Assembly (NCBI RefSeq): GCF_002895945.1
Contig: NZ_NPZB01000001.1
Span: forward strand, 449,501 to 513,500
Length of the DNA stretch: 64,000 nt
Reading direction: 5' to 3'
Source: Solilutibacter silvestris
GTDB lineage: Bacteria; Pseudomonadota; Gammaproteobacteria; Xanthomonadales; Xanthomonadaceae
Below, in pieces: positions 40,820 to 47,950 of the stretch. How positions within the stretch are numbered: position 1 is the stretch's first letter; the number at the start of each line of letters is the position of its first letter. The position numbers were made by a program, and so were the translations under genes. Below the pieces are notes generated by a model, which was given only the letters and a program-made list of their open reading frames with translations, made no database searches and was not told the origin of the DNA.

Positions 40820-41425
40820 ATGGACGAACCCGACTCCCCCGACCGCCGCAACGGCGTCAGTCGCAATGATGCCGAAGCCGCCGTGCGCACCCTGCTGCGT
40901 TGGGCCGGCGACGATCCGACCCGCGAGGGCCTGCTCGATACGCCCAAGCGCGTGGTCAAGGCCTACGGCGACTGGTTCAGCGGCTACGCCATCGATCCCG
41001 ACGATTACCTGCAGCGCACCTTCGAGGAAGTCGAGGGCTACGACGAAATGATCGTGTTGCGCGACATCGAATACGAAAGCCATTGCGAACATCACATGGC
41101 GCCGATCATCGGTCGCGTCCATGTCGGCTACCTGCCGAAAGGTCGCGTGGTCGGCATCAGCAAACTGGCGCGCGTGGTCGAGGCCTACGCACGGCGCTTC
41201 CAGGTGCAGGAAAAAATGACCGCGCAGATCGCCCAGTGCATCCAGCGCGCGCTGCGTCCACAGGGCGTTGCGGTGGTGGTGGAAGGCGCGCACGAATGCA
41301 TGACCACCCGCGGCATCCACAAGCGCGGTGTCAGCATGATGACCTCGAGCATGCTCGGTACCTTCCGTGAAGACGCCCGCACCCGCAACGAATTCCTCGG
41401 CTTCATCCAGCCCGGCCGGCGCTGA
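40820..41425 (+). CDS. folE: GTP cyclohydrolase I
   Basis: The enzyme turns GTP into 7,8-dihydroneopterin triphosphate, the first step of tetrahydrofolate and pterin synthesis. The 201-residue product has the zinc ligands Cys89 and His92 in [11 protein letters not shown] and Cys160 in [10 protein letters not shown], and the substrate-binding segment [20 protein letters not shown]. Length is normal. Its product also leads toward pterin cofactors; PhhA, encoded elsewhere in the window, needs a pterin, but no direct link is shown. Confidence 0.97.
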
Positions 41426-41527
41426 ATGGGACGAACCGAGTTCACAGAGCGCGGGAAAATCGCTTGTCCGGCCCGCACGCCTCTGCCAGTATCTGCCGGC
41501 ACCGCTTGAATCGCAGGGGATAGCGCA

Positions 41528-42118
41528 ATGACCGGCAAGAAGAATGGAAAGCAAGCCCCGGACACCGTGGCCGACGTCGCCACTGGCGCCACCAGCCCGC
41601 CCGGCGAGCACAAGATGGAGCAGATCCGCGAGCTGATGTTCGGCAGCGTGGTCCGCGATTTCGAGCGCCGCCTGGGCGAGCTCCACGATCGCTTCGAAGC
41701 CGAATCCGCGCGCATCCTCGCCGATGGCCAGAAGCGCGTCGCCGAACTCGAGGCGCGCCAGGCCGCGCAGATCGAACGCCTGCAGGGCCAGTTGCGGCAG
41801 GAATCCGCCGCCCGTACTGGCGCCCTGGAAGACGTCGATACCCGCTTCGGCCAGTCCCTGCGCACCCAATCGAACGAAATCACCGCGGCGTTGCAGCGCC
41901 ACGAGGACGATGCCGTCTCCAGCGAAGCGCGCCTGCGCGAAGCGATGGCGCAGCTGGAACAACAGCTGACGCAGGCATTGCAGGGCGCGAAGGACCAGTT
42001 CGCCTCTGGCCATCGTCGCCTCGGCGATGAAAAACTCGCCCGCGAGGACATGGCCGACATGATGGCGGAACTGGCGTTGCGCCTGCGTGGTGCGCAGGAC
42101 GGCGCCGGACACGGCTGA
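41528..42118 (+). CDS. Coiled-coil protein, first gene of the GTPase operon
   Basis: A 196-residue soluble protein. After a short Pro/Ala-rich start (about 1-30) it is one long charged helix (about 31-180) with heptads of Leu, Ala, Glu, Arg and Gln (FERRLGELHDRFEAESARIL, LEARQAAQIERLQGQLRQES), so it probably forms a coiled-coil rod. A good ribosome-binding site (AGGGGA) lies 7 nt before the ATG. It is 10 nt upstream of the OmpA-domain gene and shares its direction with the GTPase. No family assigned; a scaffold role is inference. Confidence 0.75.
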   Translation: MTGKKNGKQAPDTVADVATGATSPPGEHKMEQIRELMFGSVVRDFERRLGELHDRFEAESARILADGQKRVAELEARQAAQIERLQGQLRQESAARTGALEDVDTRFGQSLRTQSNEITAALQRHEDDAVSSEARLREAMAQLEQQLTQALQGAKDQFASGHRRLGDEKLAREDMADMMAELALRLRGAQDGAGHG

Positions 42119-42128
42119 GGCCCCCGCG

Positions 42129-43835
42129 ATGAGCGGCGAATACGACCGCCTGCGCCATCTGCTGGTCGATGCGGAGAGCAGCCGCCTCGATGCGCTCGAG
42201 GAAAAGCTGGGCGAGACGGCGGCGGAATTCGCCACGGTCCCCGATCGCCTCGCCGAAGACATCGAGCGCAACGTCCACGGCGGACAGCGCACACGCTTGG
42301 GCGACGCACTGGCCGAAGCGACCGCAGGCTCGCTGGAACTGGCGGTGCGGCGCAAGCCGGAAACGGTGGTCAACGCCGTCTATCCGGTGATCGGCCCGGC
42401 GATCCGCCGTTCCATCGCCGAAGCATTGAGCGAGATGGCCGACGGTTTCGACCGCTCGATGCGCGAAACCTTCAGCCTGCGCGCGCTGCGCTGGCGCTTC
42501 GAAGCGTGGCGCAGCGGCATTCCCTATGCCTGGGTGGTGTTGCGCCAGACCACGCGCTACCAGGTCGAACACCTGTTCCTGATCGAGCCGGGCAGCGGCC
42601 TGCTGCTTGGCCATGTCACCGCGAAGGGCCTGCCGGAACTCGACGCCGACGCGGTCGCCGGGATGTTCACCGCGATCAACCAGTTCGTCCGCGATTCGGT
42701 GTCGGTCGATGGTCGCGATGGCGGCATCGGTTCGGCGATGGTGGGCGGCTACCACCTAGCCGTCAGCGAAGGCCCGCAGGCGCGCCTGGTCGCCTTCGTC
42801 CGCGGCATGCCCGAGCAACGCTTCGGCGTGCGCCTCGACGAAGCCAACGAAGCGCTGCACGCGCACCATGGCAGCGAACTGACGGCGAATGGCCAGGCGG
42901 GAGATCCCGAACATCCGCTGCTCGAGCAGGCGCAACTCGATGCGCTCAATCCCCGCCACGAAACCCCGACCGTGTCGCGGCAAGGCCAGCGCCGGATCGT
43001 CTACATCGTGCTGGCCGTACTCGTCATCGCGGCGCTCATCTATGCCTTGCTGCAATTGCGTTGGCATGCACGATCGTCGGCGTTGCACGATCATCTGGCC
43101 GCCGAACCGGGGCTGGTGATCACCGGTTGGGATGATGGTCATCGCAACCGGCTGGTGATCGACGGGCTGATGGATCCACAGGCCGAAGGCGTGAAGACGT
43201 GGATGGCCGCGCATGCCGGTGACGTCGGCGTCACCTGGCACATGCGACCGTATGCCTCGCTCGAACCGGCCATCATCCGCCGCCGCGTTGCCGGGCGACT
43301 GGGTTTGAACGAGGCCAACGTGGAATACACGCAATCCGAAGGGATCGTCCGCCTGCGCGGTGAAGTGCCGTTCCCGCGCTGGTACGCGGCGACGCGACCG
43401 GATGCGCTGCAATTGGATTCGGCGCGCCTCGACAGCAGCGGTCTTGGCTATCCGGGCAAGCCGAAGATCGATGCGCTGATCCGGCGAATCGAATCCGCCG
43501 CGATCACCTTCGGCAGCGGCACCGCGCAGCCCGACAGCGGCACGGAGCAGACCGTCGCCGGGTTGATGCACGACATCGACACACTGGTCGCCGAAGGGCA
43601 GCCGCGCGGGATCGCGTTCCGCTTCAAGGCGTCCGGATTCACCGATGAGGCCGGCAGTTACGAGCAGAATCGGAGCCTGCGCCAGCAACGTTCGGAATGG
43701 CTGGCGTCACGCGCGCTGAAGGCGCTGAAGTCGCCATCGACGATCACCATCGATCAGTCCGCCATCTACATCCTGCCCGGTTCCAGCACGCGCGCGACCT
43801 CGCTCGCGGTCGAACCTTTCCCGGCGAAGCCATGA
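42129..43835 (+). CDS. Inner-membrane protein with C-terminal OmpA-like domain
   Basis: A 568-residue protein. Residues about 1-130 are helical; about 135-230 form a compact domain (RYQVEHLFLIEPGSGLLLGH, AGMFTAINQFVRDSV, GPQARLVAFVRG) that looks like a Roadblock/longin-type fold by pattern (inference). One membrane helix lies at about 289-310 (IVYIVLAVLVIAALIYALLQL). The C-terminal part (about 480-568) has an OmpA-like peptidoglycan-binding signature, SGFTDEAGSYEQNRSLRQQR. No signal peptide, so the N-terminus should be cytosolic and the OmpA domain periplasmic. Its stop overlaps the start of the GTPase gene (ATGA at 43832). Confidence 0.82.
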   Translation: MSGEYDRLRHLLVDAESSRLDALEEKLGETAAEFATVPDRLAEDIERNVHGGQRTRLGDALAEATAGSLELAVRRKPETVVNAVYPVIGPAIRRSIAEALSEMADGFDRSMRETFSLRALRWRFEAWRSGIPYAWVVLRQTTRYQVEHLFLIEPGSGLLLGHVTAKGLPELDADAVAGMFTAINQFVRDSVSVDGRDGGIGSAMVGGYHLAVSEGPQARLVAFVRGMPEQRFGVRLDEANEALHAHHGSELTANGQAGDPEHPLLEQAQLDALNPRHETPTVSRQGQRRIVYIVLAVLVIAALIYALLQLRWHARSSALHDHLAAEPGLVITGWDDGHRNRLVIDGLMDPQAEGVKTWMAAHAGDVGVTWHMRPYASLEPAIIRRRVAGRLGLNEANVEYTQSEGIVRLRGEVPFPRWYAATRPDALQLDSARLDSSGLGYPGKPKIDALIRRIESAAITFGSGTAQPDSGTEQTVAGLMHDIDTLVAEGQPRGIAFRFKASGFTDEAGSYEQNRSLRQQRSEWLASRALKALKSPSTITIDQSAIYILPGSSTRATSLAVEPFPAKP

Positions 43836-44335
43836 AGTCGATTTCCCGCAAGATCATTCTTCTTGGCGATTTCGCCGTCGGCAAGACCAGCACGGTGGCG
43901 CGCAGCGTGCGCAACACCTTCTCGGACACCTACCTGACCACGGTCGGCGTGCGCGTCGACAGCAAGGCGATGGCGATCGACGATGACTTGCATCTGCGCA
44001 TGGTGCTGTGGGATATCGCCGGCGCCAACACGCTCGACCAGTTGCGCAGCAACTACGTGATGGGCGCGCAAGGCATCCTGCTGGTGGCCGACGGCACCCG
44101 CGAAGACACGGTGGACACGGCACTGGAACTGCGCGAACAGGCGTGGCGGCTGTTGGGTCGTGAAGTGCCGGTCGTGCTGATGCTCAACAAGTCCGATCTC
44201 GCCGATGCCTGGGCCATTTCGCAGGACCGGATCCGCGAATTGCAGGCGCAATTGCCGACCTTCACCGCCAGTGCCAAGACCGCGACCGGCGTGGAGGAGG
44301 CATTCGCGGCACTCGCGCGGGAACTGCTGCCTTGA
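43832..44335 (+). CDS. Ras/Rab-like small GTPase
   Basis: A 167-residue single-domain GTPase of the Ras superfamily. G1 is GDFAVGKTS (12-20), the G2 Thr lies in TYLTTVG (33-39), G3 is WDIAG (60-64), G4 is NKSD (119-122) and G5 is SAK (147-149). The residue after DxxG, the catalytic Gln of Ras, is Ala65. No lipidation motif is present at the C-terminus. The ATG overlaps the stop of the OmpA-domain gene, and its stop overlaps the next gene. Bacterial members of this superfamily include MglA and the Rup families; I cannot place it more exactly. Confidence 0.88.
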   Translation: MKSISRKIILLGDFAVGKTSTVARSVRNTFSDTYLTTVGVRVDSKAMAIDDDLHLRMVLWDIAGANTLDQLRSNYVMGAQGILLVADGTREDTVDTALELREQAWRLLGREVPVVLMLNKSDLADAWAISQDRIRELQAQLPTFTASAKTATGVEEAFAALARELLP

Positions 44336-45798
44336 ATGCGAAACGGCAACAGACGGCGACCGCCGCCGCGCAGCGTCGCGACACCGCATTGCCGATCGTG
44401 GTCACGCTGGATGGCGACGGCGGGATCATCGACATCGTGGGTGATCTCGCCACCTTCATCGGTGGTGACGACAGCGTGGACACGGTGGTCGCCCGGCTGT
44501 ACGCGCTGACGTACGGGGAAGGTGGCCTGCCCGAGCGGCTGGGTGCGGTCGAACTGTCGGAAAACCGTTACGCCGACATCAACATTTTTTTCGAGGACGA
44601 ATCCCGGCATTTCGTCCTGCGCGATGTCTCCGCGGCGATGCAGTCGTTGCGCGCGCGCCAGCAACTCGATCATGAAGCCGAACTCGAGCAGCAGCGGATG
44701 CCGAAATCGGCAGCCAGGATGCACGCCCGCGAAGGCGATATCGCGCAGGGCGATCGCGTGTTCCGGCAAGGCGCCGGCCTGCTCGAAATGGTGTCGACGG
44801 AGATGCGCGAGGCGTTGCTGTTGCTGTCCGGCCATGTGCAACTGCTGGCGCGCCGGGTGCAAGGCGATCCAACCGCGCTGGCTTCGGCGGCAGCGATGCA
44901 GCACGCGGTGATGCGCCTGGATGCGTTGTCGGCGAATGCGCTGATCGGCTTGGGAGAACTGGCGACGGGCAGGGAGCAGCGCGGCATGATCAGCCTCGAC
45001 GGCCTCGCCGGATTCCTGCAGGACTCGTTCGCGCTGCAGGCCGGCATGCGCGGCATCCATCTCGAATTGCGCGTCCCCGAGACGCCGGCATTGATCGAAG
45101 TGGACGACCTCGCATTGCGGCGGCTGCTGGTCAACCTGACCGTGCACGCGCTGGATGGCATGGATCATGGCGAGTTGCGGATCGCCCTGCTGGCGAAGGA
45201 TGGCAGCCTCGAAATCGAACTCGAAGCCGAGCCGGACGGATTGTCGGCGGAGCGCTTCGGCGAACTGGTCACCACCGTCGATCTGTTGCATTCCAATGCG
45301 CATGGCAACTTGTTGCTGGCCGCCAGCCAGGCGTTGCTGCAGCGACTGCAAGCGAAAGTGGAACTGGTCGAACGCGTGCAGGGCGGCAACCTGCTGTGGA
45401 TCCGCGTTCCGGTGTCGACTTCGGCGAAAGGCGTCGGCCTGGATTCCGATGGCGGCGCACCGCGCGATTTCGATGCGCGCGTGGTGGCGGTTGCCCTCGA
45501 TGATCGCGTGCTGGCGGCGCGTGTCGTTGCCGCCTTGCAGGCCAAGGGCATCCCCGCCATCGAAACGCAGTCCGCGGGCAGGATCGCGGCATTCCAGCGT
45601 GGCGGCGATTTGCGCGCGATCGTGGTCGACGCAGGACATGAGTTGACCGCGTCCGGCATCGCCACGATGATGCTGGTCGAGCACGGCGGACGCGCAGGGG
45701 AGCGCGACGGTTGGGCATACGATCGCGGCATCGTCCGCGTGACGGATGCGATCGGGGACGATGCCTTGCGGGAAGCGCTGGATGCGTTGCTGGCATGA
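44332..45798 (+). CDS. Degenerate histidine-kinase-like protein of the GTPase operon
   Basis: A 488-residue protein, probably starting at TTG 44332 that overlaps the GTPase stop (TTGA). An N-terminal PAS-like region (about 18-105) is followed by a DHp-like helical region where the usual SHE is STE (MVSTEMREALLLLSGHVQLL), so the phospho-acceptor His is missing. The HATPase-like region lacks a normal N box (LLVNLTVHALDG). The C-terminal 120 residues (RVVAVALDDRVLAARVVAAL, LRAIVVDAGHEL) resemble a receiver domain. It is likely a regulatory pseudokinase. A later start codon cannot be excluded. Confidence 0.7.
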   Translation: MNAKRQQTATAAAQRRDTALPIVVTLDGDGGIIDIVGDLATFIGGDDSVDTVVARLYALTYGEGGLPERLGAVELSENRYADINIFFEDESRHFVLRDVSAAMQSLRARQQLDHEAELEQQRMPKSAARMHAREGDIAQGDRVFRQGAGLLEMVSTEMREALLLLSGHVQLLARRVQGDPTALASAAAMQHAVMRLDALSANALIGLGELATGREQRGMISLDGLAGFLQDSFALQAGMRGIHLELRVPETPALIEVDDLALRRLLVNLTVHALDGMDHGELRIALLAKDGSLEIELEAEPDGLSAERFGELVTTVDLLHSNAHGNLLLAASQALLQRLQAKVELVERVQGGNLLWIRVPVSTSAKGVGLDSDGGAPRDFDARVVAVALDDRVLAARVVAALQAKGIPAIETQSAGRIAAFQRGGDLRAIVVDAGHELTASGIATMMLVEHGGRAGERDGWAYDRGIVRVTDAIGDDALREALDALLA

Positions 45799-45813
45799 CG
45801 ACGAGGGGAGTGG

Positions 45814-46719
45814 ATGATCCAGATTGACGGCATGGCAACCTTCGTTGCCGTGGTCGAGGCGGGCAGCCTGACCGCTGCCGCCACGCGCCTGAACACCACG
45901 AAATCAGTGGTGAGCCGGCGTCTTGTCGATCTGGAAACGGAACTGGGCGCGATCCTGCTCGAGCGCGGAACGCGCGGCGCGCGCGCGACCGAAGTCGGCG
46001 CGGTGTATTACGCCAAGTGCGTACGCATCCTCGAAGCGATCCACTCGTCGAGCGAATTCGTTTCCGGGTTCAACGACATCGTGGCCGGGACCCTGAAGGT
46101 CGCCATGGCGCGTTCGTTCCACGAAGCGTCGATCGCGGCAGTCCTCAATCGCTTCGCCGCGCAATATCCCGACATCGTGCTGCAGGTGGAAACACCGGAG
46201 TCGGGCCGGCTCGACGACGGCGATTTCGACGTCGCGCTGCAGCCGGGCGAACCGTCCGGCCCCGATCTCATCGCCCGCACCTTGTTCGAATTCGCCAACG
46301 TCCTCTGCGCCAGTCCCGACTACCTTCAGCGCCGCGGCATGCCACGCATGCCTGCGGAGATGGCCGACCATGACGCGCTGGTCGATGGTGACGGCAAGGC
46401 GATCGGCTGGAGTCATCGCGAACATGGCCAGTGGCTGCCACTGCGGACGCGGGAACACCTGCGCAGCAGCGATCGCCGGCAACTGGTGTCTGCCGTCCGC
46501 GAAGGACTCGGCATTCTCCTGGCGCCGGAATCGGTGGTGGCCGAAGATCTCTCCGCCGGGCGGCTGCAGCGTGTCTTGGCCGATGCCGAACTCCCACCGG
46601 GGCGGATCTCGATCCTGTATCCGCGCAGTCGCCGGACCTCGAGGAAAGTGCAGCTGTTGCTGGCATTCCTGCGCGAGGCGTTTCCAGCGGACGAGGCGAT
46701 GATCGCGGATCCCGATTGA
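45814..46719 (+). CDS. LysR-family transcriptional regulator
   Basis: A 301-residue regulator with an N-terminal winged helix-turn-helix (MATFVAVVEAGSLTAAATRL, then KSVVSRRLVDLETELGAILLERG) and a periplasmic-binding-like effector domain from about residue 90. It begins 15 nt after the kinase-like gene with a strong GAGGGGAG ribosome-binding site, so it may share the GTPase-operon transcript. Target and inducer are not evident. Confidence 0.9.
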   Translation: MIQIDGMATFVAVVEAGSLTAAATRLNTTKSVVSRRLVDLETELGAILLERGTRGARATEVGAVYYAKCVRILEAIHSSSEFVSGFNDIVAGTLKVAMARSFHEASIAAVLNRFAAQYPDIVLQVETPESGRLDDGDFDVALQPGEPSGPDLIARTLFEFANVLCASPDYLQRRGMPRMPAEMADHDALVDGDGKAIGWSHREHGQWLPLRTREHLRSSDRRQLVSAVREGLGILLAPESVVAEDLSAGRLQRVLADAELPPGRISILYPRSRRTSRKVQLLLAFLREAFPADEAMIADPD

Positions 46720-46754
46720 CGCGTCCGATTGATGCGTTGCGGCTGATGCCAGGC

Positions 46755-46966
46755 GTTCGCATTGCGCGAACACCGGGTCCTTCCTGGCCACCTAGCCGCG
46801 AACACGGCGAGATCCCAACATCGTGCTGGCCAAGCCGCGACTCCGGCTTGCGTGTCGCCCGCATCCTCCCTGCCGGGCAGACCCAGATCGCTGTCCTCGG
46901 CGATCCGGACCAGAGGGAGGTTCGCCTCCCTCTGGCTCTGTTCGCGAAACGCGAACCCGGTGTTCG
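46755..46966. repeat. Palindrome-dense structured element with terminal inverted repeats
   Basis: A 12-bp perfect inverted repeat (CGAACACCGGGT at 46767-46778, ACCCGGTGTTCG at 46955-46966) encloses several hairpins: 46831-46850 (7-bp stem), 46886-46905 (6-bp stem) and 46910-46935 (perfect 11-bp stem with TTCG loop). Each end carries a further small hairpin, GTTCGC/GCGAAC at 46755-46771 and GTTCGCG-AAA-CGCGAAC at 46940-46956. No coding signal is convincing here. It resembles a REP/MITE-like dispersed element or a structured RNA. Confidence 0.6.
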
Positions 46967-47041
46967 TCCGGGCCGGAAGCCAACTCCCTGAAACCTCCGG
47001 ACAATGCCGAAATCGAAAGCAGCGGCGTTGCGAAACTTGTC

Positions 47042-47302
47042 ATGAGCGTGGTCGATCCCATTGAATCTGCGCGTGCGTTGCAGATGACGATCAACCGGCT
47101 GTTCAAGTCCGACATGGGCGAAGTCCGCTTGATCATCAGGGGCCACGGCGTACTCGAGGCCAAGACGCTGTACACCTTGTGCAAGGTGGGGATCCAGGCA
47201 GCCCTGGACGACACCCTGCTTGAAGTAGAGGAAGACCAGGGCGGGGGCAGCCAAAACGGGGGGATGCCGGGGAGAGGCGCTGAGGGGAGCGCCTCTCCTT
47301 GA
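47042..47302 (+). CDS. Small hypothetical protein
   Basis: An 86-codon ORF from ATG 47042. The first 65 residues look protein-like (RALQMTINRLFKSDMGEVRL, LEAKTLYTLCKVGIQAALDD) with GC-rich third positions, but the last 20 are low-complexity Gly/Ser/Pro and overlap a terminator-like hairpin. No clear Shine-Dalgarno sequence. The open frame continues upstream into the structured repeat. No family recognised; it may be a real small gene or a passenger of the repeat. Confidence 0.4.
   Translation: MSVVDPIESARALQMTINRLFKSDMGEVRLIIRGHGVLEAKTLYTLCKVGIQAALDDTLLEVEEDQGGGSQNGGMPGRGAEGSASP
47271..47300 (+). terminator. Hairpin before the DUF2239 gene
   Basis: A perfect 11-bp stem (GGAGAGGCGCT at 47271-47281 with AGCGCCTCTCC at 47288-47298) around a GAGGGG loop, followed by only TT. 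Its position before a promoter-like AT-rich stretch (TTGACA 47299-47304, TATAAAAT 47317-47324, spacing shorter than the usual 17) suggests a boundary between transcription units. Confidence 0.5.
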
Positions 47303-47353
47303 CATTTTGATCCGGGTATAAAATGATGGCGTATCTTTCCAAGATCCCGCCTG

Positions 47354-47950
47354 ATGTCCTGGAACCTCCACACCCGTTGCACCGCTTTCGTTGACGGCCA
47401 GCGCGTCGCCGCCGGCGAGTTGCGCCATGTCGCGATCAAGGCCAAACAGGCCGTGGATGCGCGCGCAGAAGCCCGGCTGCTGGTCTTCGATGATCGCGAT
47501 GGCAGCCAGATCGAGCTGGATTTGCGCGGCAACATGTCCGACCTGATGCAACGCCTCAGTGGCGACGCGCCGATCACCCCGCCGCAGGATGAAACGCCGA
47601 TCCGTCGCGGCCGTGGTCGCCCGCGTTTGGGCGTGACCGCGCGCGAAGTCACGCTGCTGCCGCGCCATTGGCAATGGTTGAACGCGCAACCCGGTGGGGC
47701 CTCGGTGGCGCTGCGCAAACTGGTGGAAGACGCGCGCCGCCGCAACGCCGAGTCGGATCGCGCCCGCGGCTGCCAGGAAGCGGCCTATCGCTTCATGCAT
47801 GCGATGGCCGGCGATCTGCCCGGCTTCGAGGACGCCACCCGCGCGCTGTTCGCGCAGGATGTCGCCGCGCTCGAACAACACATGGTCGGCTGGCCCGACG
47901 ATATCCGCGAGCATGCGTTGATGCTCGCTGCCGACGCGCTGCACCACTGA
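47354..47950 (+). CDS. DUF2239 family protein
   Basis: A 198-residue cytosolic protein matching the DUF2239 family by layout: a start with CTAFVDGQRVAAGEL, a middle RRGRGRPRLGVTAREVTLLPRHWQWL segment (about 83-109) and a C-terminal helical part (QEAAYRFMHAMAGDLPGFEDATRALF). The RGRGRPRLG piece is AT-hook-like and may bind nucleic acid. Biological role is not established. The MFS gene follows 8 nt later. Confidence 0.85.
   Translation: MSWNLHTRCTAFVDGQRVAAGELRHVAIKAKQAVDARAEARLLVFDDRDGSQIELDLRGNMSDLMQRLSGDAPITPPQDETPIRRGRGRPRLGVTAREVTLLPRHWQWLNAQPGGASVALRKLVEDARRRNAESDRARGCQEAAYRFMHAMAGDLPGFEDATRALFAQDVAALEQHMVGWPDDIREHALMLAADALHH

Follow-up and report, generated by a model that had tools for sequence, protein, structure and literature searches.

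What is a Rab/Ras-like GTPase doing in a bacterium between a membrane protein that probably holds the cell wall and a histidine kinase that has lost its catalytic residues? The question is raised by four adjacent genes, here called A to D, in a 64,000-nucleotide stretch of Solilutibacter silvestris (the window: contig 1, 449501-513500, of a 2.85 Mb genome). The original prediction took them for an undescribed module; in fact, the set had already been described for Group 1 Rup GTPases by Wuichet & Sogaard-Andersen (PMC4316618, cited throughout from the accessible part of that paper). We consider it probable that the window holds such a Group 1 Rup module, in a five-gene form belonging to the window's family, in which a longin/roadblock domain of B regulates the GTPase C, and the pseudokinase D acts as effector. 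The genes are:

41528..42118, + strand: gene A, open reading frame of 196 amino acids
42129..43835, + strand: gene B, open reading frame of 568 amino acids, counted from the ATG used
43832..44335, + strand: gene C, open reading frame of 167 amino acids, Rab/Ras-like GTPase of the Group 1 Rup type
44332..45798, + strand: gene D, open reading frame of 488 amino acids with a TTG start
45814..46719, + strand: gene for a LysR-type regulator (Pfam LysR_substrate, 1.7e-36), the fifth gene in the form of the window's family

A gene unit conserved across phyla

The spacings A-B, B-C and C-D are 10, -4 and -4 nt, and the B/C overlap is again 4 nt in 8 of 11 first relatives (starts picked by script). With gene B as query, we read the best 80 of 380 relatives, all from named genomes. 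A homologue of gene A lies upstream of B in 76 of these loci, and in the remaining four (L034, L084, L092, L108) B is at or near a contig end. Gene C is close to B in 73, on the opposite strand in three of them (L073, L086, L112); three of the seven loci without it end at a contig boundary (L049, L063, L095), and four have room. An even sample of the class gave a similar picture: B is present in 30/369 genomes, and the 28 loci read (the window and G046 being left aside) include 25 with A before B, 25 with C after it and 22 with an output N-domain, one of the missing GTPases (L179) again being at a contig end. The locus sets overlap (e.g., L033/L022, L058/L023, L078/L167), at least 3 of the 28 class-sample loci being contigs already among the 80, and rows are not all independent. 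Going by their record titles, loci with A-B-C linkage come from gammaproteobacteria, acidobacteria, gemmatimonadota, verrucomicrobia and cyanobacteria; one more is from a planctomycete, where the GTPase gene is on the other strand. Linkage far above chance and tight spacing thus bear out the idea of a single unit, and the search for conserved linkage that the original prediction proposed leads across several phyla rather than to close relatives alone. What did not hold is its extent of four genes, since in the window's family the unit goes on into the LysR gene.

Within that family (the family grouping of the genomes used; L046 and L058, labelled Lysobacteraceae, fall under other families of the order in it), B is sparsely distributed, occurring in 13/395 genomes including one weak match (G154, E 8e-4) and one remnant. 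In the genus it occurs in 3/17 genomes, some of them incomplete, and the GTPase profile matches 4/17, one weakly. Four plasmid records match, each at less than 60% identity.

The gene A protein, described in the original prediction as a coiled-coil rod, is charged, lacks proline over residues 46-185 and has a conserved N-terminal block (IRELMFGSVVRDFERR) whose R, F and G are kept in 74/76 homologues. A crude heptad count lends the coiled coil weak support, so that a charged helical, probably coiled-coil protein is what we retain. Its matches to ZorA3 (1.1e-5) and LeoA (0.0022) fall in charged helical stretches, and B matches ZorB1 at its OmpA-like end (0.021 and 0.035). We considered a Zorya/MotAB defence or stator identity; these PADLOC/NCBIfam matches are weak, the sole match of B to solved chains by sequence has E 0.57, and no search for a MotA-like partner was made.

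The GTPase and its putative membrane-bound regulator

Gene C encodes a Ras-family protein (Pfam Ras, E 2.3e-29), as predicted. Its nearest solved proteins are a Thorarchaeota Rab (1.6e-24) and Rab1, and a profile of 11 members prefers Rab-23 (4.1e-37), Rab-7 and the Thorarchaeota Rab. One motif sets it apart:

44009..44023, + strand: G3 motif W-D-I-A-G of C; the next residue is Ala, at the site of the Ras catalytic Gln

In an alignment of 73 GTPases (window included, L072 dropped as short), just one has Gln directly behind DxxG, while the G3 Asp and Gly and the NKxD motif are present in 73/73 and the P-loop GK[TS]S is constant. PMC4316618 gives eukaryote-like motifs without the G3 Gln as the hallmark of Group 1 Rup GTPases, and Rup GTPases are reported to be the nearest prokaryotic relatives of eukaryotic Rab/Ras/Rho/Ran (PMC4316618, PMC4915359, the latter likewise in part). 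We assign C to this group by motifs and neighbourhood, i.e., by the G3 motif without Gln, the linked coiled-coil, OmpA and output genes, and the Gln of the output protein. The accessible part of PMC4316618 contains no characterised Rup member, and we found no experimental Rup study in the open literature, which mostly leaves out subscription papers.

What, then, regulates this GTPase? The candidate is the protein encoded next to it:

42555..42959, + strand: predicted longin/roadblock domain of B, residues 143-277
42996..43064, + strand: membrane-spanning helix of B, residues ~290-312 (hydropathy peaks at 3.07 in the 19-residue stretch that starts at 290)
43500..43748, + strand: C-terminal OmpA-like domain of B, with approximate limits at residues 458 and 540 (invariant motif columns; Pfam OmpA in 16/30)

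B has a single strong hydrophobic stretch with basic residues immediately before it. Its layout is read as a cytosolic helical and predicted longin/roadblock region, one transmembrane helix and an OmpA-like end. The motif columns G503, D506, G509, N514 and R521 of that end are invariant in 30/30 aligned proteins, and Pfam OmpA matches 16 of them. The inner-membrane protein of the original prediction is upheld, with an end that probably binds peptidoglycan. In the accessible part of PMC4316618, an OmpA end on the Rup membrane partner is frequent but not constant. A BON domain between the transmembrane helix and the OmpA end is matched by Pfam in 2/30 proteins only, and we do not claim it. In three class-sample loci (L174, L176, L178), the B homologue lies inside an unusually long frame of 888-982 codons.

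The predicted model of residues 143-277 matches solved members of the longin/roadblock fold (Foldseek). Profile comparison by hhalign, with a profile built from 26 of 30 roadblock loci (four were dropped as short), gave the B domain E 0.008 against roadblock, the best of four; the other three module profiles gave 0.055, 0.14 and 0.65, and a reversed control 0.26. Together, linkage and predicted fold suggest that this domain may bind or regulate a small GTPase. In the open literature, again mostly without subscription papers, we found no longin/roadblock domain reported for the B protein, and the accessible parts of PMC3521125, PMC4917890 and PMC10933270, which treat longin/roadblock-GTPase pairs, do not mention it.

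Several results weigh against this assignment. The model has a predicted template-modelling score (pTM) of 0.57, and among the 19 best Foldseek matches all but one have target-normalised TM-scores of just 0.47-0.63. The hhalign probability accompanying E 0.008 is 5%. Window B has no match to any Pfam family, its OmpA domain being divergent and below Pfam detection. Pfam roadblock (PF03259) is absent from it and reaches E <= 1 in 2/71 members, and unrelated families listed alongside score at least as well as the best of these (0.022); genome-wide, roadblock gives no match above cut-off. A profile of the B N-domain found nothing among the sequences of solved proteins. A shared fold is no proof of binding either, as longin domains have other roles too. 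Finally, L075, L084, L091 and L100 carry B with no GTPase found despite room, and L174 and L176 in the class sample likewise have no linked GTPase.

An output protein without kinase residues

The third partner, D, consists of a PAS-like N-domain, a pseudo-histidine-kinase and a degenerate receiver-like end:

44395..44625, + strand: PAS-like N-terminal domain of D
44659..44664, + strand: Gln110-Gln111 of D, in the helix after the PAS-like domain (Q111 in 53/53 rows, Q110 in 52/53)
44797..44799, + strand: Thr156 of D, at the site of the phospho-accepting His of intact relatives

Its kinase matches are weak (HATPase_c 0.0055; PhoR model 6.4e-7, far below its cut-off), and at the phospho-His, N-box Asn and DxGxG Asp sites it has Thr, His and Ala, i.e., it lacks the residues of an active histidine kinase. 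The degenerate kinase that had been predicted is confirmed in this respect. The fold match of the N-domain is weak, a point against the model given below; a second longin domain is a candidate reading.

Of the 53 rows of the N-domain alignment, two repeat genomes already present; Q111 is also kept in 40/40 full-length D proteins. An adaptor N-domain occurs in 51 of the 80 best loci, and another 16 have one of a second type; N-domains of this second type have a comparable Gln in 20/22 rows and Lys in L075 and L100 (L069, which lacks the domain, and L073, which is cut, are excluded; by length, L169 and L080 are one contig, as are L168 and L109). This bears on an alternative close to the original Rup idea, in which the domain of B would only dimerise B or scaffold passively, and the N-domain of D alone would be the GTPase-activating protein (GAP). 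The invariant Gln suits a trans-acting GAP, and neither of the loci with Lys yielded a GTPase; those two loci are near-identical, which makes them a single event rather than two. Since linkage of B and C holds for most loci and across phyla, and since the predicted fold of B is that of known small-GTPase regulators, we regard such a passive B as unlikely.

Other outputs among the relatives comprise a kinase with catalytic residues, a c-di-GMP-type enzyme, and a phosphatase or cyclase. In two loci titled Gemmatimonadota (L069, L087), a gene for a PP2C-type phosphatase without recognised adaptor domain follows the GTPase gene, and in L083 and L044 a Gln-bearing adaptor domain has its own frame, followed by a separate kinase-homology frame. 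A GTPase with a predicted longin/roadblock partner and a wall anchor could also serve for positioning or polarity in the manner of MglA-MglB. Most of the genes that follow the GTPase gene, however, encode signalling proteins, as the adaptor counts above show, and enzymatic outputs that can be exchanged favour signalling, so that we think a positioning role highly improbable.

Loss of the kinase residues goes together with the LysR gene, which follows D in all complete family modules read (window, L033-L039, L157, L161, L162) and in L040, assigned to the order only. Elsewhere among the 80 loci and the first relatives, tblastn detected no LysR homologue next to D; L097 has a weak LysR match placed before B, and L046, L058 and L050 (Xanthomonas sp.) have intact kinases and no LysR gene beside D. 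We compared full-length D matches, to which the LysR-linked L157, L161, L162 and L039 were added. All 12 LysR-linked D proteins have lost the N-box Asn, 11 of them lack the phospho-His and 11 the DxGxG Asp; in those whose receiver-like end was examined, it seems degenerate or is absent. The 28 other full-length kinases, by contrast, all retain the three catalytic residues. A caution is that the 12 look like one lineage, in which case the association of LysR gene and kinase loss may reflect one event.

Is D simply an incipient pseudogene, in a decaying unit without present function? D is the fastest evolving gene (66-69% identity to two congeners versus 88-89% for C), and within the genus B occurs in few genomes, as given above. 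By contrast, all frames of the window are open, and omega (0.21-0.27 for D, 0.04-0.17 for C) indicates purifying selection on D. In LysR-linked D proteins, the residues that replace the lost motifs are in turn conserved (10/12 have His at the N-box site, 11/12 P-x-G at the DxGxG site), and Q111 is kept in 12/12. We therefore give decay of the window module very little credence. As regards the site of the module, the five-gene unit plus ~0.6 kb after LysR occupies 41426-47353, between folE (40820-41425) and a DUF2239 gene (47354-47950). Of 14 congeners without the module, some incomplete, nine have the DUF2239 gene immediately after folE and one has it ~1 kb further on; in the other four, none lies within 1.5 kb. 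The empty site fits loss and gain of the module alike. In module-bearing L033, no DUF2239 match lies within 3 kb beyond LysR. L163 (G117), excluded from every count, has a B remnant of ~120-190 residues and a LysR fragment ~5 kb away, apparently a decaying module.

For a Group 1 Rup module with B as regulator, the following working model can be drawn. B would span the inner membrane, its OmpA-like end probably holding peptidoglycan, and its cytosolic longin/roadblock domain would bind C and set its nucleotide state, as MglB, TRAPP and Mon1-Ccz1 do. GTP-loaded C would engage the PAS-like domain of D via the helix with the Gln pair, and one of these Gln may replace the catalytic Gln absent from C, an idea of Wuichet & Sogaard-Andersen; signalling complex and trans-acting Gln are both proposed in PMC4316618. 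Since D is a pseudokinase kept by selection, its signal must pass by protein contact, perhaps to the adjacent LysR regulator. Gene A presumably provides a scaffold. More broadly, and as a tentative proposal a little less likely than not, several bacterial phyla would own a complete Rab-plus-longin switch with a wall-anchored regulator, a Gln-bearing PAS-like adaptor and interchangeable outputs, which the window's family has turned into a kinase-free relay, perhaps via LysR. If so, this would be the bacterial counterpart of the TRAPP-Rab and Mon1-Ccz1-Rab pairs and supply the missing regulator of Rup GTPases. A longin/roadblock domain in B would already mean that bacteria pair Rab-type GTPases with this fold beyond the MglA lineage as well, with a bearing on the origin of eukaryotic membrane-traffic switches, and the question of the regulator would be open to direct test with purified proteins. 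The pseudokinase variant, in turn, is a natural experiment that separates GTPase coupling from kinase catalysis.

Comparison with known systems

GAP1 GTPase conflict systems (PMC7159879, seen in part) were considered and set aside, as their components differ. The closest likeness is to the Group 1 Rup neighbourhoods, which share the coiled coil, the protein with an unknown domain, transmembrane helix and OmpA end, the GTPase without G3 Gln and the output with an invariant N-terminal Gln. In the accessible part of PMC4316618, the unknown domain is given no fold and Rup is described as uncoupled from MglB, whereas here a longin/roadblock fold is predicted. Unlike in published Rup modules, the kinase residues are lost and a LysR gene is added, and the relatives show outputs beyond the published kinase and c-di-GMP types.

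The original prediction was reminded of MglA-MglB, a likeness that now gains a predicted structural basis in the roadblock-like fold of B. As in Myxococcus and Thermus, a small GTPase gene lies beside a gene for such a predicted fold. The module GTPases keep the G3 Asp, which MglA lacks according to the accessible part of PMC4316618, and B, unlike MglB, is a large membrane protein missed by the roadblock Pfam model. The actinobacterial conservon CvnA-D likewise combines a kinase, a roadblock protein and a small GTPase in a unit of four genes; here, by contrast, the GTPase is of the Rup type, there is no separate MglB homologue, the membrane protein is not the kinase, and an OmpA end and a coiled-coil gene are present. 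With the eukaryotic Rab guanine nucleotide exchange factors that contain longin domains (TRAPP, Mon1-Ccz1, CPLANE), the module would share the pairing of a Rab-like GTPase with the longin/roadblock fold. The module differs from them in being bacterial, in having a single membrane-anchored chain and in leading to a signalling output rather than to vesicle traffic.
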